A stretch of 64,000 nt of DNA from Microbulbifer litoralis. Lineage in GTDB: Bacteria > Pseudomonadota > Gammaproteobacteria > Pseudomonadales > Cellvibrionaceae. The stretch lies in contig NZ_JALKCV010000006.1 in assembly GCF_023634065.1 (NCBI RefSeq), positions 1 to 64,000 of the forward strand, written 5' to 3'. The notes below the pieces were generated by a model, which made no database searches, had not been told where the DNA came from, and worked only from the letters and a program-made list of their open reading frames with translations. The translations under genes were made by a program, and so were the position numbers. Each line of letters starts with the position of its first letter. The first letter of the stretch is position 1. This document shows, piece after piece, positions 38,652-48,279 of the stretch.

Positions 38652-39059
38652 TCACACTTCCTCGATGCGGTAGCTGTGCGCTATCTCCACGCCGGCGTTC
38701 TTCAGCATGATGGACGCCGAGCAGTACTTGTCCGCCGACAACTCCACCGCCCGCTTCACCTGGCTCTCCTTGATATTGCGGCCGCGCACGACAAACGCCA
38801 TCTCGATACGGGTAAAAGGCGCCGGGGTAGCATCCGGGCGCTCGCCGTTCAGTTCGCAGTGACAGGAGAGGACGTCCTGGCGCGCCTTCTGCAGGATGCT
38901 GACCACGTCGTAGGAAGCGCAGCCGCCCACTCCCAGCAGGATCATCTCCATCGGGCGGATGCCGTTGTTCTTGCGCCCACCTTCCATTACCACCGAATTA
39001 CCGCTGCCGGCCTCGCCGACAAACGTCAGCTCGTCTACCCAGGTCACTTTGCCCTGCAT
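38652..39059 (-). CDS. OsmC-family protein
   Basis: This 135-residue OsmC/Ohr superfamily protein has the conserved cysteine in MILLGVGGCASYDVV and a second in LSCHCELNGE, the pair expected for thiol-dependent peroxidase activity. The subgroup resembles E. coli YhfA, which also sits beside crp. It is divergent from vfr. Role in oxidative stress is inferred from the family. Confidence 0.88.
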   Translation of the reverse strand: MQGKVTWVDELTFVGEAGSGNSVVMEGGRKNNGIRPMEMILLGVGGCASYDVVSILQKARQDVLSCHCELNGERPDATPAPFTRIEMAFVVRGRNIKESQVKRAVELSADKYCSASIMLKNAGVEIAHSYRIEEV

Positions 39060-39456
39060 GATCCAACTCCTTCAGAATACGAGGGCGCGAAGCTTACCAC
39101 ATCCACCGGCGCCGCCCGCTTCGCCGGCTTTTCCGGTATAGTGGTTCCGGCCCTGTCACAAAAAGACAACACTTCGATCACAGAATCGGGGGCGGTTGCC
39201 ACTGAACCCCGCAGCCGCTATAAGGTCTCACTGTGCTGCTGTAAGCTGGGTGGCTATCCGGGGCTCACGCCGGGCGCCAATGCGCGCGAAACAGCAGACT
39301 CTGGCAGGGCAATAGTGTTCCAGGTCACACTGCGAGCGTTTCCCGGGCCCGACCACTGTTGGGGACAGGCTTTTAGCGCCATAATTCAGCTGTTGTGCTG
39401 TGGCGCCTTCCGGTCGGGATCAGGCACACAAGTCAAAAATTATAAGGAGTAGGTCC
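39060..39456. other. osmC-vfr divergent intergenic region
   Basis: This 397-bp region holds a good vfr promoter at 39196-39224 and leaves a leader of about 225 nt. TCACA half-sites occur near 39176 and 39330. They could reflect CRP-type autoregulation, but no full TGTGA-N6-TCACA site was found. No small gene is supported. Confidence 0.5.
39196..39224 (+). promoter_or_regulatory. Candidate vfr promoter
   Basis: TTGCCA at 39196-39201 and TATAAG at 39219-39224 are separated by exactly 17 bp, a strong sigma-70 match. A long leader of about 225 nt would follow before the GTG start at 39457. Confidence 0.6.
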
Positions 39457-40092
39457 GTGACGGTTGCTACCGAAGAACCCATGTCTATCGGCAATATCGA
39501 AGATTTTCTCGCTCACTGCCACCGGCGTCGCTACCCGGCCAAGAGCACCATCATCTACGCGGGCGACCGCTGCGAGTCACTCTACTTCATCATGCGGGGC
39601 TCGGTGACCGTGCTGATCGAGGACGACGAGGGCCGCGAAATGATCGTCGCCTACCTGAACGACGGTGATTTCTTCGGTGAAATGGGTCTGTTCGACCAGG
39701 ACACCCGCAGCGCCTGGGTGCGCACCAAGACCGAGTGCGAGGTCGCGGAGATCTCCTACAGCAAGTTCCAGGAGCTGACCCGGCAACACCCGGAATTCCT
39801 GTTCGCCCTGGCCACACAGATGGCCGGCCGCCTGCGTAACACCACCCGCAAGGTGGGCGACCTGGCCTTCCTCGACGTCACCGGCCGCGTGGCCCGCACC
39901 CTGCTGGACCTGTGCAACGAACCGGACGCGATGACCCACCCGGAAGGGATGCAGATCAAGATCACCCGCCAGGAAATCGGCCGCATCGTCGGCTGCTCGC
40001 GGGAGATGGTCGGCCGGGTACTGAAGACCCTCGAGGAGCAGGGGCTGGTATCGGTGAAGGGCAAGACGATGGTGGTTTACGGCACGCGCTGA
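39457..40092 (+). CDS. vfr: cAMP receptor protein Vfr/CRP
   Basis: This 211-residue global regulator has the cyclic-nucleotide-binding beta barrel with FFGEMGLF and [11 protein letters not shown] (the arginine and serine that hold cAMP) and a C-terminal helix-turn-helix [21 protein letters not shown]. Starting at GTG 39457, AAGGAG lies 7 nt upstream. Its place next to osmC and trpC is the Pseudomonas vfr arrangement. An intrinsic terminator follows. Confidence 0.94.
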
Positions 40093-40120
40093 TTGAACGG
40101 TCAGAGGCCTGTAACCAGTG

Positions 40121-40147
40121 AAGGGCGAACGTTAGTTCGCCCTTTTT
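40121..40147 (+). terminator. Intrinsic terminator after vfr
   Basis: AAGGGCGAAC pairs with GTTCGCCCTT around GTTA, followed by TTTTT. It lies 29 bp after the vfr stop codon. Confidence 0.93.
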
Positions 40148-40194
40148 GATTGGGGCTCCTTCAGCTGGTGTTGTTAGTTGCGGCGGTGGCGGCA

Positions 40195-40298
40195 CTGCTA
40201 CCGATAGCTGTTTGCCAGACACGCTGTAAATACATCCATGTACGCTCTAATCGGCATCCATGCCTCATAAGGTCTGGCAAACAGCTATCGGTATCAGC
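40195..40298 (-). repeat. Palindromic repeat P3
   Basis: Arms 40195-40220 and 40272-40298 pair nearly perfectly (core CCGATAGCTGTTTGCCAGAC). The centre is the reverse complement of that in P1 and P2 (on the minus strand CTTATGAGGCATGGATGCCG then ATTAGAGCGTACATGGATG). It sits in the 400-bp gap between the convergent vfr and trpC genes. Confidence 0.9.
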
Positions 40299-40375
40299 GC
40301 CTTCGCATCGACATTCGAATTCTATTTGGATAGTTGGAAAAGAACACCTAATTTGCTGCGAAGGCCCTGCTGCCA
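40297..40375. repeat. Two opposed GAAAAG-type linker modules
   Basis: Immediately beside P3 one linker reads on the minus strand (AGAATTCGAATGTCGATGCG, GAAGGCGCTG). A second reads on the plus strand from 40337 (GAAAAGAACACC, GCTGCGAAGGCCCTGCTGCC). The second is followed by unrelated sequence rather than a palindrome. This suggests nested or rearranged copies. Confidence 0.7.
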
Positions 40376-40440
40376 CCCATTTGCTTAATGGCACCAGCCT
40401 GAAGTGCACAAAAACAAGGGCGAACACAGAGATGACACTG

Positions 40441-40466
40441 GGCGGTGCACACGGCGCGCCTTACCC
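40441..40466 (-). repeat. GTAGG-type module after array A5
   Basis: On the minus strand, following array A5, the sequence reads GTAAGGCGCGCCGTGTGCACC. This closely matches the module after array A1 (GTAGGGTGCGCCGTGCGCACC). Confidence 0.7.
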
Positions 40467-40487
40467 GAGTCCCGAGTCCCGAGTCCC
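40467..40487 (-). repeat. GGGACTC heptamer array A5, 3 copies
   Basis: Three perfect copies, G-rich on the minus strand, start 5 nt after the trpC stop codon. Position and orientation relative to the gene match A1, A2 and A3. Confidence 0.94.
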
Positions 40488-40492
40488 GAGAA

Positions 40493-41287
40493 TCAGTTAA
40501 ACATCTCCATCAACTTGCGCCCCGGCTCCGGCTCGCGCATAAACGCCTCCCCTACCAGGAAACTGTTGACGTTGTGACCGCGCATGGCTGCGACGTCGTC
40601 GGTGGTGTGGATGCCGCTCTCGGTCACCACGATGCGGTCGTCCGGTACCAGGTCCAGCAGCCTGAAGGTGGTTTCCAGCTGTACTTCGAACGTATGCAGG
40701 TTGCGGTTGTTGATACCGATCAGGCGGTTGGGCAGTTTCAGGGCACGTTCCAGCTCCTCGCGGTCGTGCACTTCGACCAGTACATCCAACCCAAGCTCCT
40801 GCGCCAGGCCGTTCAGGTCCTGCATCTGTGCGTCCTCCAGGCAGGCGGCGATCAGCAGGATACAGTCGGCGCCGATGGCCCGCGCCTCGCACACCTGGTA
40901 CGGATCCACAGTGAAATCCTTGCGCAGCACTGGCAGGCGCACGGCATTGCGGGCCTGCTGCAGGTAGGCATCGCTGCCCTGGAAGAAATCCACATCGGTC
41001 AATACCGACAGGCAGGCGGCGCCGCCCTTTTCATAGCTGGTGGCGATCTCCGCCGGAATAAAGTCCGGGCGGATAACGCCCTTGCTCGGCGAGGCTTTCT
41101 TGATCTCCGCGATTACCGCCGCCTCACCGGCCTGCAATCTGGTCTCGAGTGCCGATACAAATCCGCGCGCCGGCGGCTGGTCCACCGCCCTGGCCCGAAG
41201 CTCTGCCATCGGGCACTGCCGCTGGCGCTCGGCCACCTCTTGCCACTTGCGCTCGACAATGGTCTTCAGGATCGTCGGGGTGCTCAT
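40493..41287 (-). CDS. trpC: Indole-3-glycerol phosphate synthase
   Basis: TrpC closes the indole ring in tryptophan synthesis. The 264-residue TIM barrel has [48 protein letters not shown] and [11 protein letters not shown] motifs with the catalytic lysines and glutamates. It overlaps trpD by 4 bp and is the last gene of the leftward trp run. It is monofunctional (no TrpF fusion). Confidence 0.97.
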
Positions 41288-42342
41288 GAGCGCTTCTCCT
41301 CGATGGGTTCCGGCCGGAAGGCGCTGGTGAAGGCCGCCAGGTCCTTGATCCTCTCCCCGGCGATGCCGCTGGCAATGGCGTCCTGGGCCATGGCCACGCC
41401 CTGCTCGGCGCTGTCCGCCACGCCGCTGACATAGATCGCCAATCCCGCGTTCATCGCGATCACATCGGCGGCCTTGCGGGCCGCCTCGCTGTCGTCGCCG
41501 GCCAGCGCCGCGCGGATCAGGGCCAGGGATTCCTCGGCACCGGACACCGTCAGGCCGGAGAGATCGCGGCGCTCGATGCCAAAGTCCTCGGGGCGGATGC
41601 TGAATTCCCGCAGTTCGCCGCCTTTCAGCTCCACCGCGTGGGTATCCGCCGCCAGGCTCACCTCATCCAGGCCGTCTTCGCTGTGAACCACCAGTACATG
41701 TTCGGAACCGAGACTCTGCAAAACCTCGGCGAGAATGCGGCAGTAGCTGCGGTCATAGACACCGATCACCTGGCGCGTCACGCCGGCCGGATTGGTCATC
41801 GGGCCCAGCAGGTTGAAAATGGTGCGCAGCCCCAGCGCCCGACGCGCGCCCACCGCGTGGCGCATGGCGCTGTGGTAGGTGGGTGCGAACATAAAACCGA
41901 CGCCGACAGTATCGACGCAGCGCGCCACCTGCCCGGCGTTCAGCTCCAGATAGATACCGGCCCGGTCCAGCAGGTCCGCCGCGCCGCTGCTGGAGGAGAC
42001 CGAACGGTTGCCGTGCTTGGCCACCCGCGCCCCCGCCGCCGCGGCGACAAAGCTGGCGGCACTGGAGACGTTGAACAGGTTGGCGCCGTCACCGCCGGTG
42101 CCGACGATATCCACCGCATGGGTCAGGTCCAGTTGCACCGGTGTTGCCAGTTCGCGCATCACTTCCACCGCGCCGGCGATTTCCTCCACTGTCTCACCGC
42201 GCAGCCGCAGCGCCACCAGCAGGCCACCGATCTGCGCCTCCTCGGCCTCGCCGCGCATGATCTGGCCCATGGTGTCGCGCATCTCGGCGCGCGTGAGGTG
42301 ATCGCCTTCCACCAGCTTGGCGATGGCCTGTTGGATATTCAT
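41284..42342 (-). CDS. trpD: Anthranilate phosphoribosyltransferase
   Basis: TrpD adds phosphoribose to anthranilate. The 352-residue protein has the PRPP loop [37 protein letters not shown] and the [12 protein letters not shown] motif. Length is typical. It overlaps trpC by 4 bp and lies 54 bp downstream of trpG. Confidence 0.97.
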
Positions 42343-42396
42343 TTTTTCTCCCCTGATCCCTGTGATATATGCGGCCCGGCTGCCGCTCTTGTCGAT

Positions 42397-42975
42397 TCAA
42401 GCCTCGAGAAAGTTTCTCAGCATATCGTGGCCGTGTTGCGTAAGGATGGACTCGGGGTGGAACTGCACCCCCTCCACCGGCAGTTCGCGATGACGGAAGC
42501 CCATGATCTCGTCGATCTCACCGCTCCCGGTCTCGGTCCAGGCGGTGACTTCCAGGCACGCCGGCAAACTGCCCTTCTCCACCACCAACGAGTGGTAACG
42601 GGTGGCCTCGAACGGATTGGACAGGCCGTGGAACACCCCCAGGTTGTTGTGCACTATCTGCGATGTCTTGCCGTGCATTACCTGGCCGGCGCGCACCACG
42701 CGGCCGCCGAACACCTGGCCGATGCTCTGGTGGCCGAGGCAGATGCCCAGGATCGGGATCTGCCCGGCGAAGCGGCGGATGGTATCCATGGAGATTCCCG
42801 CTTCGTTGGGCGTGCAGGGTCCCGGCGAAATCACGATTTTCTCCGGCGCCAGCGCGTCGATATCGTCGACGGCGATCTCATCGTTGCGCACGACTTTTAC
42901 ATCCGCGCCCAGCTCGGCCAGGTACTGCACCACATTCCAGGTAAAGGAGTCGTAGTTATCGATCATCAGAATCAT
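42397..42975 (-). CDS. trpG: Anthranilate synthase component II
   Basis: TrpG is the glutaminase subunit that supplies ammonia to TrpE. The 192-residue class I amidotransferase has the nucleophile cysteine in [17 protein letters not shown] and the catalytic HPE in [13 protein letters not shown]. In many bacteria it is shared with PabA function. Its start overlaps the stop of the ion channel gene by 4 bp. Confidence 0.97.
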
Positions 42976-43844
42976 TGTGCGGCTCCTCTATCCATTGCTT
43001 TCTCCAACTCTTGCATTTCGGGCTCCATGCGCTTCTGCAGTCGTGCCAGGGCATGCTGTGTGGCGCGCAGCTCGCGCAGGATTTCCGTCTGGCTGGGCGG
43101 CAGCTGCAGCTCGTCCAGGCGGCGCAGCTTGGCCTCTTCCAGGTTGTTCAGCACCACGCCGATAAACAGGTTGATCATCACGAAGGCGCCCATCACCACA
43201 AAGCTGATGAAGTAGACCCAGGCCCAGGGCATGGAATCCATGGCGGTGTACATGATATCGGTCCAGTCCTCGAAGGTGACGATCCGGAACAGGCTCAGCA
43301 GCGCGATCGGCAGGCTGCGCCAGTGGGTCGGGTCGATCTCGTGGAACAGGAAATAACCGGCCACCCCGTAGATATAGAAGATGATGCTCATCAGCAGCGC
43401 AATATGGAACATGCTGGGCAGGCTCCTGAGCAGTGTATCCACCAGCAGGCGCAGCTCCGGGAAGGCCGACACCAGGCGCAGTACCCGCAGCACCCGCACC
43501 AGGCGCGCGAGCGTGGCCAGCGGCCCGGCCGCCGGGATCAGGCTCAGGGCGATGATACTGAAATCAAAGCAGTTCCAGCCGCTGGCAAAGTAGCGCCAGG
43601 GGCGGCTCCCGTGCGCCGCCATCTTGATCGCCGCCTCGACGATGAAGGACACCAGGATCAGTTGGTTGACGCCGTGCAGCAGGTCGCCGAAGCGGCCCAC
43701 AAACCACTGCGAAGTCTCCAGCCCTACGGCCACACCGTTGAGCAGGATCAGGCCGATAATTGCCTGGTTGAACAGCGGCGCCTCGACAAGACGCCGGCAG
43801 AGCCCGGCCAGGGACGGGCTGCTGGGAATACTAACTTCGTTCAT
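42972..43844 (-). CDS. Voltage-gated-type ion channel subunit
   Basis: This 290-residue six-transmembrane ion transport protein has a voltage-sensor S4 with arginines at every third position (R114, R117, R120, R123 in [14 protein letters not shown]) and a pore loop with TFEDWTD (190-196). The loop aligns with the TLESW filter of NaChBac-type sodium channels. A C-terminal helix ([21 protein letters not shown]) looks like a tetramer coiled coil. I start at ATG 43844. It overlaps trpE by 14 bp and trpG by 4 bp, so it is translated as part of the trp operon. Ion selectivity and any link to tryptophan are unknown. Confidence 0.88.
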
Positions 43845-45357
43845 CACTGGTGACTTTCGCTGTGCTGTTGCTCTCACCGCCGTCACCGACCGACAGCGCC
43901 ATGGCCGCGGCGCGGAACAGCGCACGGGCCTTGTTCATGGTTTCGTCCCACTCGGATTGCGGGTCCGAGTCGGCCACCAGGCCGGCGCCGGCCTGGATAT
44001 ACAGTTGACCGTCCTTGATCACCGCCGTGCGGATGGCGATGGCGGTGTCCATATTGCCGTTCCAGGCCAGGTAGCCGACCGCGCCGCCGTAGATGCCGCG
44101 CTTCTCCGGCTCCAGCTCGTCGATGATCTCCATGGCGCGGATCTTGGGCGCGCCGGATAGAGTGCCCGCCGGCAGCGCCGCGCGCAGCGCGTCGATACCG
44201 GTGAGGCCGGACTTCAACCGGCCGGCGACATTGGAGGTGATGTGCATCACGTGAGAGTAGCGCTCCACCACCATCTGTTCGGTCACCTTGACGCTGCCGG
44301 TCTCGGCCACGCGGCCGACGTCGTTGCGGCCCAGGTCGATCAGCATCAGGTGTTCGGCGACCTCCTTCGGGTCCGCGAGCAGCTCGCGCTCCAGCGCCGC
44401 GTCCTCCTCCTCGCTGGCACCGCGGCGGCGGGTGCCGGCCAGCGGGCGCACGGTCATTTCGCCGTCCTCCAGGTGCACCAGGATCTCCGGGCTGGAGCCC
44501 ACCACCTGGTGGTCGCCCAGATCGAGAAAGTACATATAGGGCGACGGGTTCAGGCTGCGCAGCGCGCGGTAGAGATTCAGCGGCGGCGCGCTGAACGGCG
44601 CCGACAGGCGCTGGGATGGCACCACCTGCATCACGTCGCCGGCCAGCACATACTCTTTCACGCGGCCGACCGCCCGCTTGAATGCCTCCTCGCCGAAGTG
44701 GGAGTGAAAGGCGGACTCGTCGATACCGTTGCCATCCAGGTCCAGAGGCACCGTTTCCGGCAGCGGCTGTGCCAGCTTGTCGACCAGTTGATCCAGGCGC
44801 TCGCCGGCGCGCTCGAAATCCCCGTCCAGCGCCGGATCGGCGTGGACGATAAGGATCACCGCCCCGGCCAGGTTGTCGAACACCACCAGCTCGTCACTGA
44901 CCATCAGCAGGATATCCGGGTTGTCGAGAATATCCGGCGGCGCGCTGTCGGCCAGGCGCGGCTCGATATAGCGCACGCAGTCGTAGCCGAAATACCCCAC
45001 CAGGCCACCGTTGAAGCGCGGCAGGCCCGGCAGTTCCGGCACCTTGTAGCGCTGCTGGAATTCCTCCACGAATGCCAGTGGATCCTCCGCCTGGTGCCGC
45101 TCAATCACCTCGCCGCCGCGCTCGACGGTGACGGTGTGATCGCGAACCCGCAGCAGAGTGCGCGCCGGCAGGCCGATGAACGAGTAGCGGCCCCACTTCT
45201 CACCCCCCTGCACCGATTCCAACAGATAGCTATAGCGACCCGCGGCCAGTTTCAGGTAGGTGGACAGCGGTGTCTCGATATCCGCCAGCACGCGGCGCAC
45301 CAGCGGTATGCGGTTGTAACCCGCGGACGCAAGTTGGGCGTATTCACTTGGGGTCAT
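43831..45357 (-). CDS. trpE: Anthranilate synthase component I
   Basis: TrpE converts chorismate to anthranilate with ammonia from TrpG. The 508-residue protein has the feedback-inhibition region [19 protein letters not shown], and the chorismate-binding C-terminal half has [21 protein letters not shown] and [15 protein letters not shown]. It heads the leftward operon trpE-channel-trpG-trpD-trpC. No leader peptide with tandem tryptophan codons was found upstream, so classical attenuation is not supported. Confidence 0.97.
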
Positions 45358-45541
45358 GGCGACTCCAGTCAGTTTGCAAAGATTCGATTGGCGGGCGGGT
45401 GGATACAGCGGGCGCCCACGGGATAGGCGGCCAGGCGGCGTCGATGCCGGTTGTTGGCCTCAGCGGACTAGCGGCGCCATCGCCAGCTGTTGATGTGGGG
45501 GGCAGTGTGGTTCACGGATGTTCCCTCAATTTGGGCGCATA

Positions 45542-45570
45542 AGTGTACAAATCCATTGTGGGGGCGGCAA
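45542..45570 (-). promoter_or_regulatory. Candidate trpE promoter
   Basis: On the minus strand TTGCCG (45570-45565) and TACACT (45547-45542) are spaced by 17 bp, each matching 4 of 6 consensus bases. The G-rich heptamer array A6 ends 7 bp upstream of the -35 box. Confidence 0.45.
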
Positions 45571-45577
45571 GGGGTTC

Positions 45578-45619
45578 GGGACTCGGGACTCGGGACTCGG
45601 GACTCGGGACTCGGGACTC
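45578..45619 (+). repeat. GGGACTC heptamer array A6, 6 copies
   Basis: Six perfect copies, G-rich on the plus strand, lie immediately upstream of the predicted trpE promoter. They are followed on the plus strand by a GTAGG module. No plus-strand gene ends before this array. Confidence 0.96.
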
Positions 45620-45620
45620 A

Positions 45621-45664
45621 AGTAGGATGCGCCATGCACACCGGCCGGCCAACGGTACGCACCG
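45621..45664 (+). repeat. GTAGG-type module after array A6
   Basis: GTAGGATGCGCCATGCACACC, a short spacer and CAACGGTACGCACC align with the module after array A1 (GTAGGGTGCGCCGTGCGCACC ... CAACGGTGCGCACC), with a few changes that weaken the hairpin. Confidence 0.72.
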
Positions 45665-45799
45665 ACAGAAAAGCGCTCCTGCATTTTCTGCACTTCCGCC
45701 ATCCATGGCACTCACCCTTCGGGCGCCCTCGGCGTCCAAACTTGTTCCCGACAAATTTGTCCCGGAGGGAGAGAGTAGCTACATAGTGAATCTCGGGGG

Positions 45800-46465
45800 T
45801 TACTTGGCCAGTTGCCGCCGCAGGGCGCCGATGGTCTCGGCGTAGTTGTCGGCGCTGAAGATGGCTGAGCCGGCGACGAAGGTATCGGCGCCGGCGGCGG
45901 CGATCTCGGCGATATTGTCCTGTTTGACGCCGCCGTCGATCTCCAGGCGGATATCCAGCCCGGAGTCGTCGATCAGCCGGCGCGCCTCGCGCAGCTTGTC
46001 GAGGGTCGCGGGGATAAACTTCTGGCCGCCAAAGCCCGGATTGACGGACATCAAAAGCAGCATATCCAGCCGGTCCATCACGTACCGGGCCGCATCCAGG
46101 CCGGTGGCCGGATTGAAGACCAGGCCCGCCCTGCAACCCAGGCCCTGGATCAGCTGCAGCGAGCGGTCCACATGGCGCGAGGCCTCCGGGTGGAAAGTGA
46201 TGGAGGTGGCGCCGGCGTCGGCGAACATGCGGATCATATCGTCCACCGGCTCCACCATCAGGTGTACATCGATGGGCGCCTCCACGCCGTGTTTGCGCAG
46301 CGCCTGGCAGACCATCGGGCCGATGGTCAGGTTGGGCACATAGTGATTGTCCATCACATCGAAATGCACCCAGTCGGCACCGGCGGCCAGTACCGCGTCC
46401 ACTTCCTCGCCCAGGCGGGCGAAATCGGCAGAGAGGATGGAGGGGGCGATCTTGTAATCCGGCAT
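45800..46465 (-). CDS. rpe: Ribulose-phosphate 3-epimerase
   Basis: Rpe interconverts ribulose-5-phosphate and xylulose-5-phosphate in the pentose phosphate pathway. The 221-residue TIM barrel has [36 protein letters not shown] with metal-binding His/Asp, [13 protein letters not shown] and [11 protein letters not shown]. It is on the same strand as murU upstream (24-bp gap), so the two may be cotranscribed. Confidence 0.97.
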
Positions 46466-46489
46466 TGCGGTTCCCTGTGGTTCAGAAAT

Positions 46490-47203
46490 TCATCGGCTCA
46501 GGCGCTGCTCGAGTCGCTGCAGGCGCTCGGGTGTACCCACATCGCACCAGTCGCCCTCATAGAGTTCCGCCTGCATCCTGTCCTCGTTGTGAGTAAACAC
46601 CTCGCCGAGACCGAAGCAGGCGCGGGCGCGAGGGTACTCACTCAACGCTTTCGGATCCAGCCAGCTGATCCCCGAGAAGGTATAGCGGGGCTTGGCAGTG
46701 CCGGACAGGAGCCCATTCTCGATGCCGAAATCCCCCTCCGGGTTGTGCGGCGGGTTGGGCACCATCAGCAGGCGGCCGGGGCAGCGCTCGGGCAGCGGGC
46801 GCCGCAGCCACTGGCCCAGGTCGAAGTCGCACCACACATCGCCGTTGACCACCCAGAAGGGGCGGTCGCCGAGCAGCGGCAGCGCGCGCAGGATACCGCC
46901 GGCGGTTTCCAGCGGCTCCTCCTCGACGGAGTAGCGGATCTCCAGCCCCCAGCGCGAGCCGTCGCCCAGGTGCTCGCGAATCCTGTGGCCCAGGTGGCCG
47001 AGGTTGATCACGGCGCGGCGCACACCGACTTTCGCCAGCCGCTCGATGGCATACTCGATCAGCGGTCTGCCGGCCACCGGCAGCAGGGGTTTGGGGGTCG
47101 TATCGGTCAGCGGGCGCATGCGCCTGCCAAAGCCGGCGGCCAGCACCATGGCTGCGGGGGCGTCGGATGACGCCGGTGTCTGCTCTCTGTCCATCTCGCT
47201 CAT
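46490..47203 (-). CDS. murU: N-acetylmuramate-1-phosphate uridylyltransferase
   Basis: MurU makes UDP-MurNAc from MurNAc-1-phosphate in a cell-wall recycling route that bypasses de novo UDP-MurNAc synthesis. The 237-residue nucleotidyltransferase has AMVLAAGFGRRMRPLTDTTPKPL near residue 18, LETAGGILRALPLL and VNGDVWCDFDLGQWL. It overlaps amgK by 4 bp, the partner kinase. Such proteins are often labelled mannose-1-phosphate guanylyltransferase; the amgK neighbour favours MurU. Confidence 0.9.
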   Translation of the reverse strand: MSEMDREQTPASSDAPAAMVLAAGFGRRMRPLTDTTPKPLLPVAGRPLIEYAIERLAKVGVRRAVINLGHLGHRIREHLGDGSRWGLEIRYSVEEEPLETAGGILRALPLLGDRPFWVVNGDVWCDFDLGQWLRRPLPERCPGRLLMVPNPPHNPEGDFGIENGLLSGTAKPRYTFSGISWLDPKALSEYPRARACFGLGEVFTHNEDRMQAELYEGDWCDVGTPERLQRLEQRLSR

Positions 47204-48279
47204 CGGGACTGCTTATTCAATGGTGTTCTGTGGTCGCCGGCGCTGCGGTAGTCGCGATACCAGTCCTGTTGCTCGGCCAGGGGCAGCAGCGTGGCGCGGA
47301 ACCAGTCTGCAAAGGGTTCCATCTGTGGATAGCGGCCAGCCACTTCCAGGGTGTAGCGGATCACCAGCGGCAGATCCGGCAGGTAGCCCCGCTTGCCATC
47401 GCGCAAGTAGAGGCGCGGGAACAGCCCCAGCACCTTGATATGGCGCTGCAGCCCCATCCAGTCGAACCAGCGCAGGAAAGTTTCCGGCGCCACGCCCTCC
47501 AGTATCCCCACGGATTCCGCCATGGCGGCATAGGATAGCGCCCAGCGCTCCACACTTTCCCGCGGCCAGCGCACATAGCAATCGCGCAGCAGCGAGACCA
47601 GGTCGTAGGTCACCGGCCCCCAGACCGCGTCCTGGAAATCCACCACACCCGGCCGCTCGCCGTCGCGCAATAACAGGTTGCGGCTGTGGTAATCGCGGTG
47701 CACCAGCACCCGGGGCTGCTCCGCGGCGCTGTCCAGCAGCAGGGAGAAAGTCTTCTCCAGCAGTTGCCGGTCCGCATCGGTGAGGGTATGGCCGAGCAGC
47801 TTCTCCGCCAGCCACTCCGGCAGGATACGCATCTCGGTCAGCAACAGTTCGCGGCTGTAGGGCGGGAACAGATCTCCCACCGGCGGTATCTGCTGCAGGC
47901 ACAGCAGTTCGCTCAGCATCTCGGCGTAGAGGCCCTCGACACTGTCTTCATCGAGCTGTTCATACAACAGCTGGTCGCCGAGATCCTCGAGCAGCATGAA
48001 GCCGTGCTCGACATCGGCGGCGAGCACCAGCGGTGTATGAATCCCGTAGCGGCGCAGGTGGTCGGCCACGGCCACAAAACGCGCCGGGTTGGTGCGCTCG
48101 GGCGGCGAGTCCACCGCGATCAGCGGCGGCGTCGTCCCGGTGCGGAAATAGCGGCGGAAACCCGCATCCCCGGCCAGGGTCCGCAGGTCCACGGGAGCGG
48201 CGCGATCGAGCGCGCGGCCGGACCACTGGCCCAGGGCCTGCCGCCGCCGATCTGTCACGTCTGTCAAAGGCTCATTCAT
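47200..48279 (-). CDS. amgK: N-acetylmuramate/N-acetylglucosamine kinase AmgK
   Basis: AmgK phosphorylates the anomeric position of MurNAc and GlcNAc. The 359-residue aminoglycoside-phosphotransferase-fold kinase has the catalytic loop VHRDYHSRNLLL near residue 193 and the metal aspartate in GVVDFQDAVWGP. It is divergent from lptD and overlaps murU, matching the recycling pair described in Pseudomonas. Confidence 0.92.
   Translation of the reverse strand: MNEPLTDVTDRRRQALGQWSGRALDRAAPVDLRTLAGDAGFRRYFRTGTTPPLIAVDSPPERTNPARFVAVADHLRRYGIHTPLVLAADVEHGFMLLEDLGDQLLYEQLDEDSVEGLYAEMLSELLCLQQIPPVGDLFPPYSRELLLTEMRILPEWLAEKLLGHTLTDADRQLLEKTFSLLLDSAAEQPRVLVHRDYHSRNLLLRDGERPGVVDFQDAVWGPVTYDLVSLLRDCYVRWPRESVERWALSYAAMAESVGILEGVAPETFLRWFDWMGLQRHIKVLGLFPRLYLRDGKRGYLPDLPLVIRYTLEVAGRYPQMEPFADWFRATLLPLAEQQDWYRDYRSAGDHRTPLNKQSR

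Follow-up and report, generated by a model that had tools for sequence, protein, structure and literature searches.

A predicted voltage-gated cation channel gene lies between trpE and trpG in the tryptophan operon of Microbulbifer

A gene for a predicted voltage-gated cation channel lies between trpE and trpG in Microbulbifer litoralis, overlapping both, and the same order recurs across the genus. We lean toward the reading that the product is a working channel whose gene rides as an accessory cistron in a tryptophan-attenuated operon, the gain from this position being control of expression. The features concerned, all within the window (the whole stretch of 64,000 nucleotides that was analyzed), are collected in Table 1.

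Table 1. Features of the tryptophan operon in the window, in the order of reading
Feature	Position	Strand	Basis
Candidate Trp leader peptide, GTG..TAG, MNHTAPHINSWRWRR	45468..45515	-	Genus comparison
trpE, anthranilate synthase component I	43831..45357	-	Pfam Chorismate_bind and Anth_synt_I_N
Voltage-gated cation channel gene (predicted), 290 aa from ATG	42972..43844	-	ORF, Pfam Ion_trans, predicted structure
Codons of the S4 arginine ladder, R114-R123	43476..43505	-	Translation; relatives compared
Selectivity filter TFEDWTD, residues 190-196	43257..43277	-	
trpG, glutamine amidotransferase	42397..42975	-	Pfam GATase
trpD (presumed)	41284..42342	-	ORF; adjoins trpG in relatives
trpC (presumed)	40493..41287	-	ORF; 4-bp overlap with trpD

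The channel gene overlaps trpE by 14 bp (43831-43844) and trpG by 4 bp (42972-42975, ATGA), exactly as the preliminary description had it. Both overlaps had been called tight, and conservation separates them: 27 of the 31 distinct sequences from the genus have the 4-bp overlap with trpG (of the others, three stand at -1 and one at +12), whereas the 14-bp overlap with trpE varies, the channel starting anywhere between -14 and about +81, counted from the trpE stop, across the genus. The two ORFs behind trpG we take to be trpD and trpC, names given from the look of the sequence. No sigma-70-like promoter was found in positions 39000 to 47500, a weak test, and Rfam gave no match at the gathering score in the same interval. 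A tandem 7-base repeat (GTCCCGA units) lies in intergenic DNA upstream of trpE, at about 45570-45620, and a repeat-like stretch, judged from the ORF letters, lies downstream of trpC at about 40445-40500; the two flank the operon.

The channel ORF matched the Pfam family Ion_trans at 1e-50. Its S4 segment has an arginine at every third residue (R114, R117, R120, and R123), and the filter occupies residues 190 to 196, which confirms the six-helix channel with an intact S4 ladder and a TFEDWTD motif that had first been recognized by eye. An AlphaFold model (11-row alignment) had a mean pLDDT of 84; its top Foldseek matches in the PDB were NavAb, CavAb, and NavMs (E of about 1e-11, 30 to 36% identity), and its match to NaChBac had 40% identity. 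The predicted six-helix fold of voltage sensor and pore, together with the S4 arginine spacing, would place the protein in the BacNav superfamily. A canonical BacNav, of the Bacillus or NavAb-like group, was ruled out by the filter, TFEDWTD not being of the TLESW kind. The filter is TLESW-like with more acidic residues, as in the ancestor-like BacNavs (AnclNavs), and in filter and predicted fold the channel resembles these. The single row of canonical type in our trees is L073 (TLESWSQ). A K+ channel was rejected for this gene. The genome has one further Ion_trans match, a K+ channel elsewhere, on contig C4, whose DNA reads TTVGYGD. NCBIfam returned no match for the five channels queried.

The channel was found in 44 of 48 Microbulbifer genomes, at 81 to 100% identity, and the trpE-channel-trpG order was present in 44 of 44 channel-bearing genomes (24, 4, and 16 from three samples). 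A strain-specific oddity, which the preliminary description had considered, is thus rejected: every carrier in the genus keeps the order, and other families have linked channels too. The channel is under purifying selection, with a median omega of 0.107, compared with 0.093 for trpE and 0.055 for trpG (187 pairs among 28 genus sequences, dS of <1.5). A pseudogene was likewise rejected, as the 44 genus matches are free of internal stops and omega is about 0.1.

Upstream of trpE, 27 of 28 genus sequences carry a leader with two close Trp residues that ends in SWRWR[RH] or a similar string, against an expectation of 0.33 from shuffles (the rule was fixed after the leader had been seen); the 28th reads GRWRR. 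By the same rule, such a leader occurs at 7 of the 20 linked loci beyond Microbulbifer, in 6 of 16 relatives that lack the channel, and in none of five sequences of another genus, g66 (0.20, 0.35, and 0.03 expected by shuffling, respectively). Judged by eye, all five g66 regions carry a conserved leader that has one Trp and ends in KRWL-stop, and in g66 a GC-rich stretch followed by a T-rich one was likewise noticed by eye. Because a Trp-codon leader stands before trpE in nearly all of the Microbulbifer sequences (27 of 28), the channel is probably subject to tryptophan attenuation. No conserved T-run terminator was found behind the Microbulbifer leader, and a conserved attenuator fold was not borne out there, the consensus fold having almost no covariation. 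Since the leader also occurs in channel-less relatives, it belongs to trpE, the channel having come to lie behind it.

The slot lacks a channel in 4 of the 48 genus genomes (G007, G812, G814, and G820). G007, which is 80% complete, has an 18-base gap before trpG and carries elsewhere a channel of the more distant type described below as a shelf. In G812, a 36-codon ORF remains whose first residues are like a channel start and whose last 19 are those of the channel at L015; in G820, a 33-codon ORF has ends resembling those of the L017 channel and an unrecognizable middle; in G814, trpE itself runs into trpG. The last stop in each of these three still overlaps the trpG start as ATGA, supplied by the relic ORF in two and by trpE in one. 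The short ORFs, at the trpE-trpG junctions L275 and L277, appear to be relics of deleted channels, with the ATGA kept. trpE of G812 (L273/L274) matched as two pieces in different frames, possibly through a frameshift, and that operon may be broken or misread. trpE and trpG are open in G814 and G820, and the claim of channel loss rests more on these two because trpE of G812 reads in two frames. From the 44 carriers and the relics, we infer that the three channel-less slots are losses. An ATGA kept without the channel implies that the overlap serves trpG and that the channel can be lost, and it suggests that coupling into trpG is retained when the intervening gene is deleted.

Because the ATGA persists in these three genomes, a tight overlap is not evidence of a functional tie. 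The preliminary description had held that tight coupling ties channel synthesis to anthranilate synthase expression. What stands of this is the embedding and a probable coexpression, consistent with the order kept in the genus and in other families, the promoter not found in the interval searched, and the Trp leader; a functional tie does not follow from the overlap.

Conservation of the order had been proposed as a check on the arrangement, and beyond the genus trpE linkage was found in part of the carriers. Among the matches listed for 390 genomes of the order, identities were bimodal, with 21 genomes at ≥49% and a shelf at 34 to 44%; trpE lies directly upstream in 18 of those 21 (10 of the genus and 8 others). 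G402, G281, and G354 are carriers in the order without trpE linkage. In the class (369 genomes), there were 18 further carriers at E values up to 1e-60, 4 of them trpE linked and one (L170) cut too near the channel to be judged. A scan of genome contigs, limited to the best 80 of 550 relatives, gave trpE-channel-trpG at 9 of 9 Microbulbifer loci and trpE directly upstream at 13 of 71 others, 5 of the 71 having <1 kb upstream and so not being judgeable. The taxa of the 13 are Gammaproteobacteria, Pseudomonadales, Halothiobacillaceae, and Candidatus Azophilus (Azotimanducaceae, Pseudomonadota). Within the same best 80, none of the Nitrospirota, Acidobacteriota, Chloroflexota, and Mariprofundaceae loci with enough upstream DNA was trpE linked. 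Some genomes of the contig scan also stand in the other samples, and most carriers outside the order are unlinked.

At the linked loci read, the channel is codirectional with trpE and starts at most about 130 bases from its stop, mostly far less. At L060, L064, and L065, it follows trpE although trpG is not adjacent. None of the conserved neighbors of unlinked channels was recognized as tryptophan related, and the rpe-trpE-trpGDC block is often syntenic itself. At L171, a relative of the channel stands divergently beside trpG-trpD, not behind trpE. In two genomes of one family, the gene after trpE-channel encodes 1,139 aa (L060, 8621-12040) or 1,075 aa (L188, 6002-9229), with propeller-like and amidohydrolase-like stretches recognized by eye.

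A second type of channel occupies the same slot. Genome G098 has, between trpE and trpG, a channel with 37% identity to that of the window and the same TFEDWTD filter, and a gene of this type is present in 39 of 44 genomes of its family. In genus g66, all seven loci read (from 7 of the genus's 9 genomes) have trpE directly upstream and trpG directly downstream of the G098-type channel, with starts within about 3 bases. The other genera of the g66 family have no trpE or trpG within 1.5 kb on either side of the channel (23 loci read). In a 36-row tree, a 100/100 branch separates the two channel types. A single origin of every trpE-linked channel, with the 16 linked rows held in one clade, was rejected on this tree (AU p of 4e-53), and so was a common clade for the 12 linked rows that belong to the channel type of the window (p of 2e-71); both groups had been defined after an earlier tree, and such a test disfavors groups chosen post hoc. 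On a 100-row quick tree, trpE linkage needs 10 changes, gains and losses counted alike, 3 of them forced by starred branches; the shuffled mean is 27. A second channel in the slot by chance is unlikely, about 1 in 100 by a rough, post hoc reckoning. One channel without trpE linkage, that of L030 (genome G030, of another family), branches within the trp-linked group of g66, which suggests that it was transferred or relocated.

On the reading toward which we lean, the protein would be a working homotetrameric, depolarization-activated cation channel of the AnclNav type, probably Na+ conducting and Ca2+ modulated, encoded in an operon of the order leader peptide, trpE, channel, trpG, trpD, trpC. 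It would be produced on read-through of the operon, when charged tRNA-Trp is low and the cell's own tryptophan synthesis is on, and ribosomes finishing the channel would restart on trpG. The benefit would lie in dosage, a membrane leak that is harmful in excess being supplied at a low level, in step with growth and through translational coupling; in our view, the channel would take no part in tryptophan chemistry. Several findings count against an accessory cistron of this kind. The channel is Trp rich (7 of 290 residues, compared with 3 of 508 for trpE, 2 of 192 for trpG, and 0 of 352 for trpD), which one would not expect of a gene induced when Trp is short. It is absent from 4 of 48 genus genomes, the leader occurs in 6 of 16 channel-less relatives, and most outside carriers are unlinked. 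Likewise, no T-run terminator was found, F stands at filter position 2, and two AnclNavs with NavPp-like filters gave no current (PMC7041947).

The channel may alternatively be a tolerated hitchhiker that landed at an easy insertion site and stays by descent, used by the cell at an address without meaning, an account that we consider rather unlikely. A search of 145 genomes of the order found trpE and trpG together on a single contig in 101, with a gap of <300 bp in 77 and a larger one in 24 (junction loci L172-L188). Among the 21 large gaps read, 6 hold channels (G000, G006, G167, G130, G128, and G098) and 2 no clear gene; the remainder hold photolyase-like, methyltransferase-like, ppk/ppx-like, phage-tail-like, and other genes, named by eye. 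Because this cargo is varied, the junction seems to accept insertions generally, and the long gaps with mostly nonchannel cargo (24 of 101 genomes) are what hitchhiking would predict; the frequent synteny of the block and the loss of the channel from G814 and G820, with trpE and trpG open, also fit it. It fits poorly with two distant channel clades in one slot (AU p of 4e-53, for post hoc groups), with a channel that follows trpE even where trpG is elsewhere, and with channels that, at the linked loci read, are codirectional with trpE and start within about 130 bases of its stop.

A direct physiological link, in which Trp limitation raises the channel and the entry of Na+ or Ca2+ alters membrane potential, transport, or signaling, appears to us distinctly unlikely. 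The Trp-codon leader of Microbulbifer and the single-Trp leader of g66 (5 of 5, by eye) would be expected from such a link, as would two recruitments and purifying selection. Yet the leader belongs to trpE, as its presence in 6 of 16 channel-less relatives indicates, and g66 scores 0 of 5 by the two-Trp rule; the channel is Trp rich for its operon, missing from its slot in four of the 48 Microbulbifer genomes, and unlinked in most other lineages. We are similarly doubtful that a physiological coupling of Trp status and membrane excitability was the cause of at least two recruitments into one slot of a Trp-attenuated operon; if it was, Trp limitation would make the cell electrically more responsive. 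No literature joining such a channel with trp was found among open-license PMC texts.

The tie to tryptophan is most likely one of expression, as in the accessory-cistron reading; a direct physiological tie is a serious, if less probable, alternative. The regulation of a channel can here be guessed from the genome, by its Trp leader and operon, and the natural losses and the second recruitment are ready comparisons for function. The arrangement raises the question of why membrane electricity should be wired to the supply of tryptophan. What bacterial voltage-gated channels do in nature is, to our knowledge, mostly open. In alkaliphilic Bacillus, such channels are a route of Na+ reentry for pH homeostasis, according to PMC4225499.

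Among known systems, the trp leader of the E. coli type works by ribosome-mediated attenuation. Microbulbifer shares with it a short peptide, encoded ahead of trpE, whose Trp codons lie close together, and differs in having no identified T-run terminator and in an operon that includes a membrane channel. In Pseudomonas, the trpE-trpG junction is a tailocin insertion site; the junction is the same, whereas the Microbulbifer insert is a single codirectional, overlapping cistron. In one study, trpE and trpG serve as markers of tailocin insertion sites, and no isolate of that study carried a tailocin at this junction (PMC8319346). Among the AnclNavs, NavPp of Plesiocystis pacifica (filter TLEDWTD) carries Na+ and is subject to Ca2+ block (PCa/PNa of 0.308), CavMr of Meiothermus ruber (TLEGWVD) prefers Ca2+, and those of Halomonas elongata and Teredinibacter turnerae, with filters similar to that of NavPp, yielded no current, all according to PMC7041947. 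As far as these published filters go, NavPp and CavMr share with our channel a single-domain six-helix plan and extra acids in the filter; TFEDWTD is one residue from the NavPp filter (F at position 2), which is itself the filter of most loci of the window's channel type outside Microbulbifer. Because NavPp, as described there, is Na+ permeable and Ca2+ blocked, we guess that the channel conducts Na+ inward with Ca2+ block, and a native Ca2+ channel, argued from three filter acids alone, was not adopted. NaChBac, NavAb, and NavMs share the predicted fold and 30 to 40% identity over the aligned part, and they differ in having a filter of the TLESW kind where Microbulbifer has EDWTD; what sets the Microbulbifer channel apart from NavPp and CavMr is its position in the trp operon.
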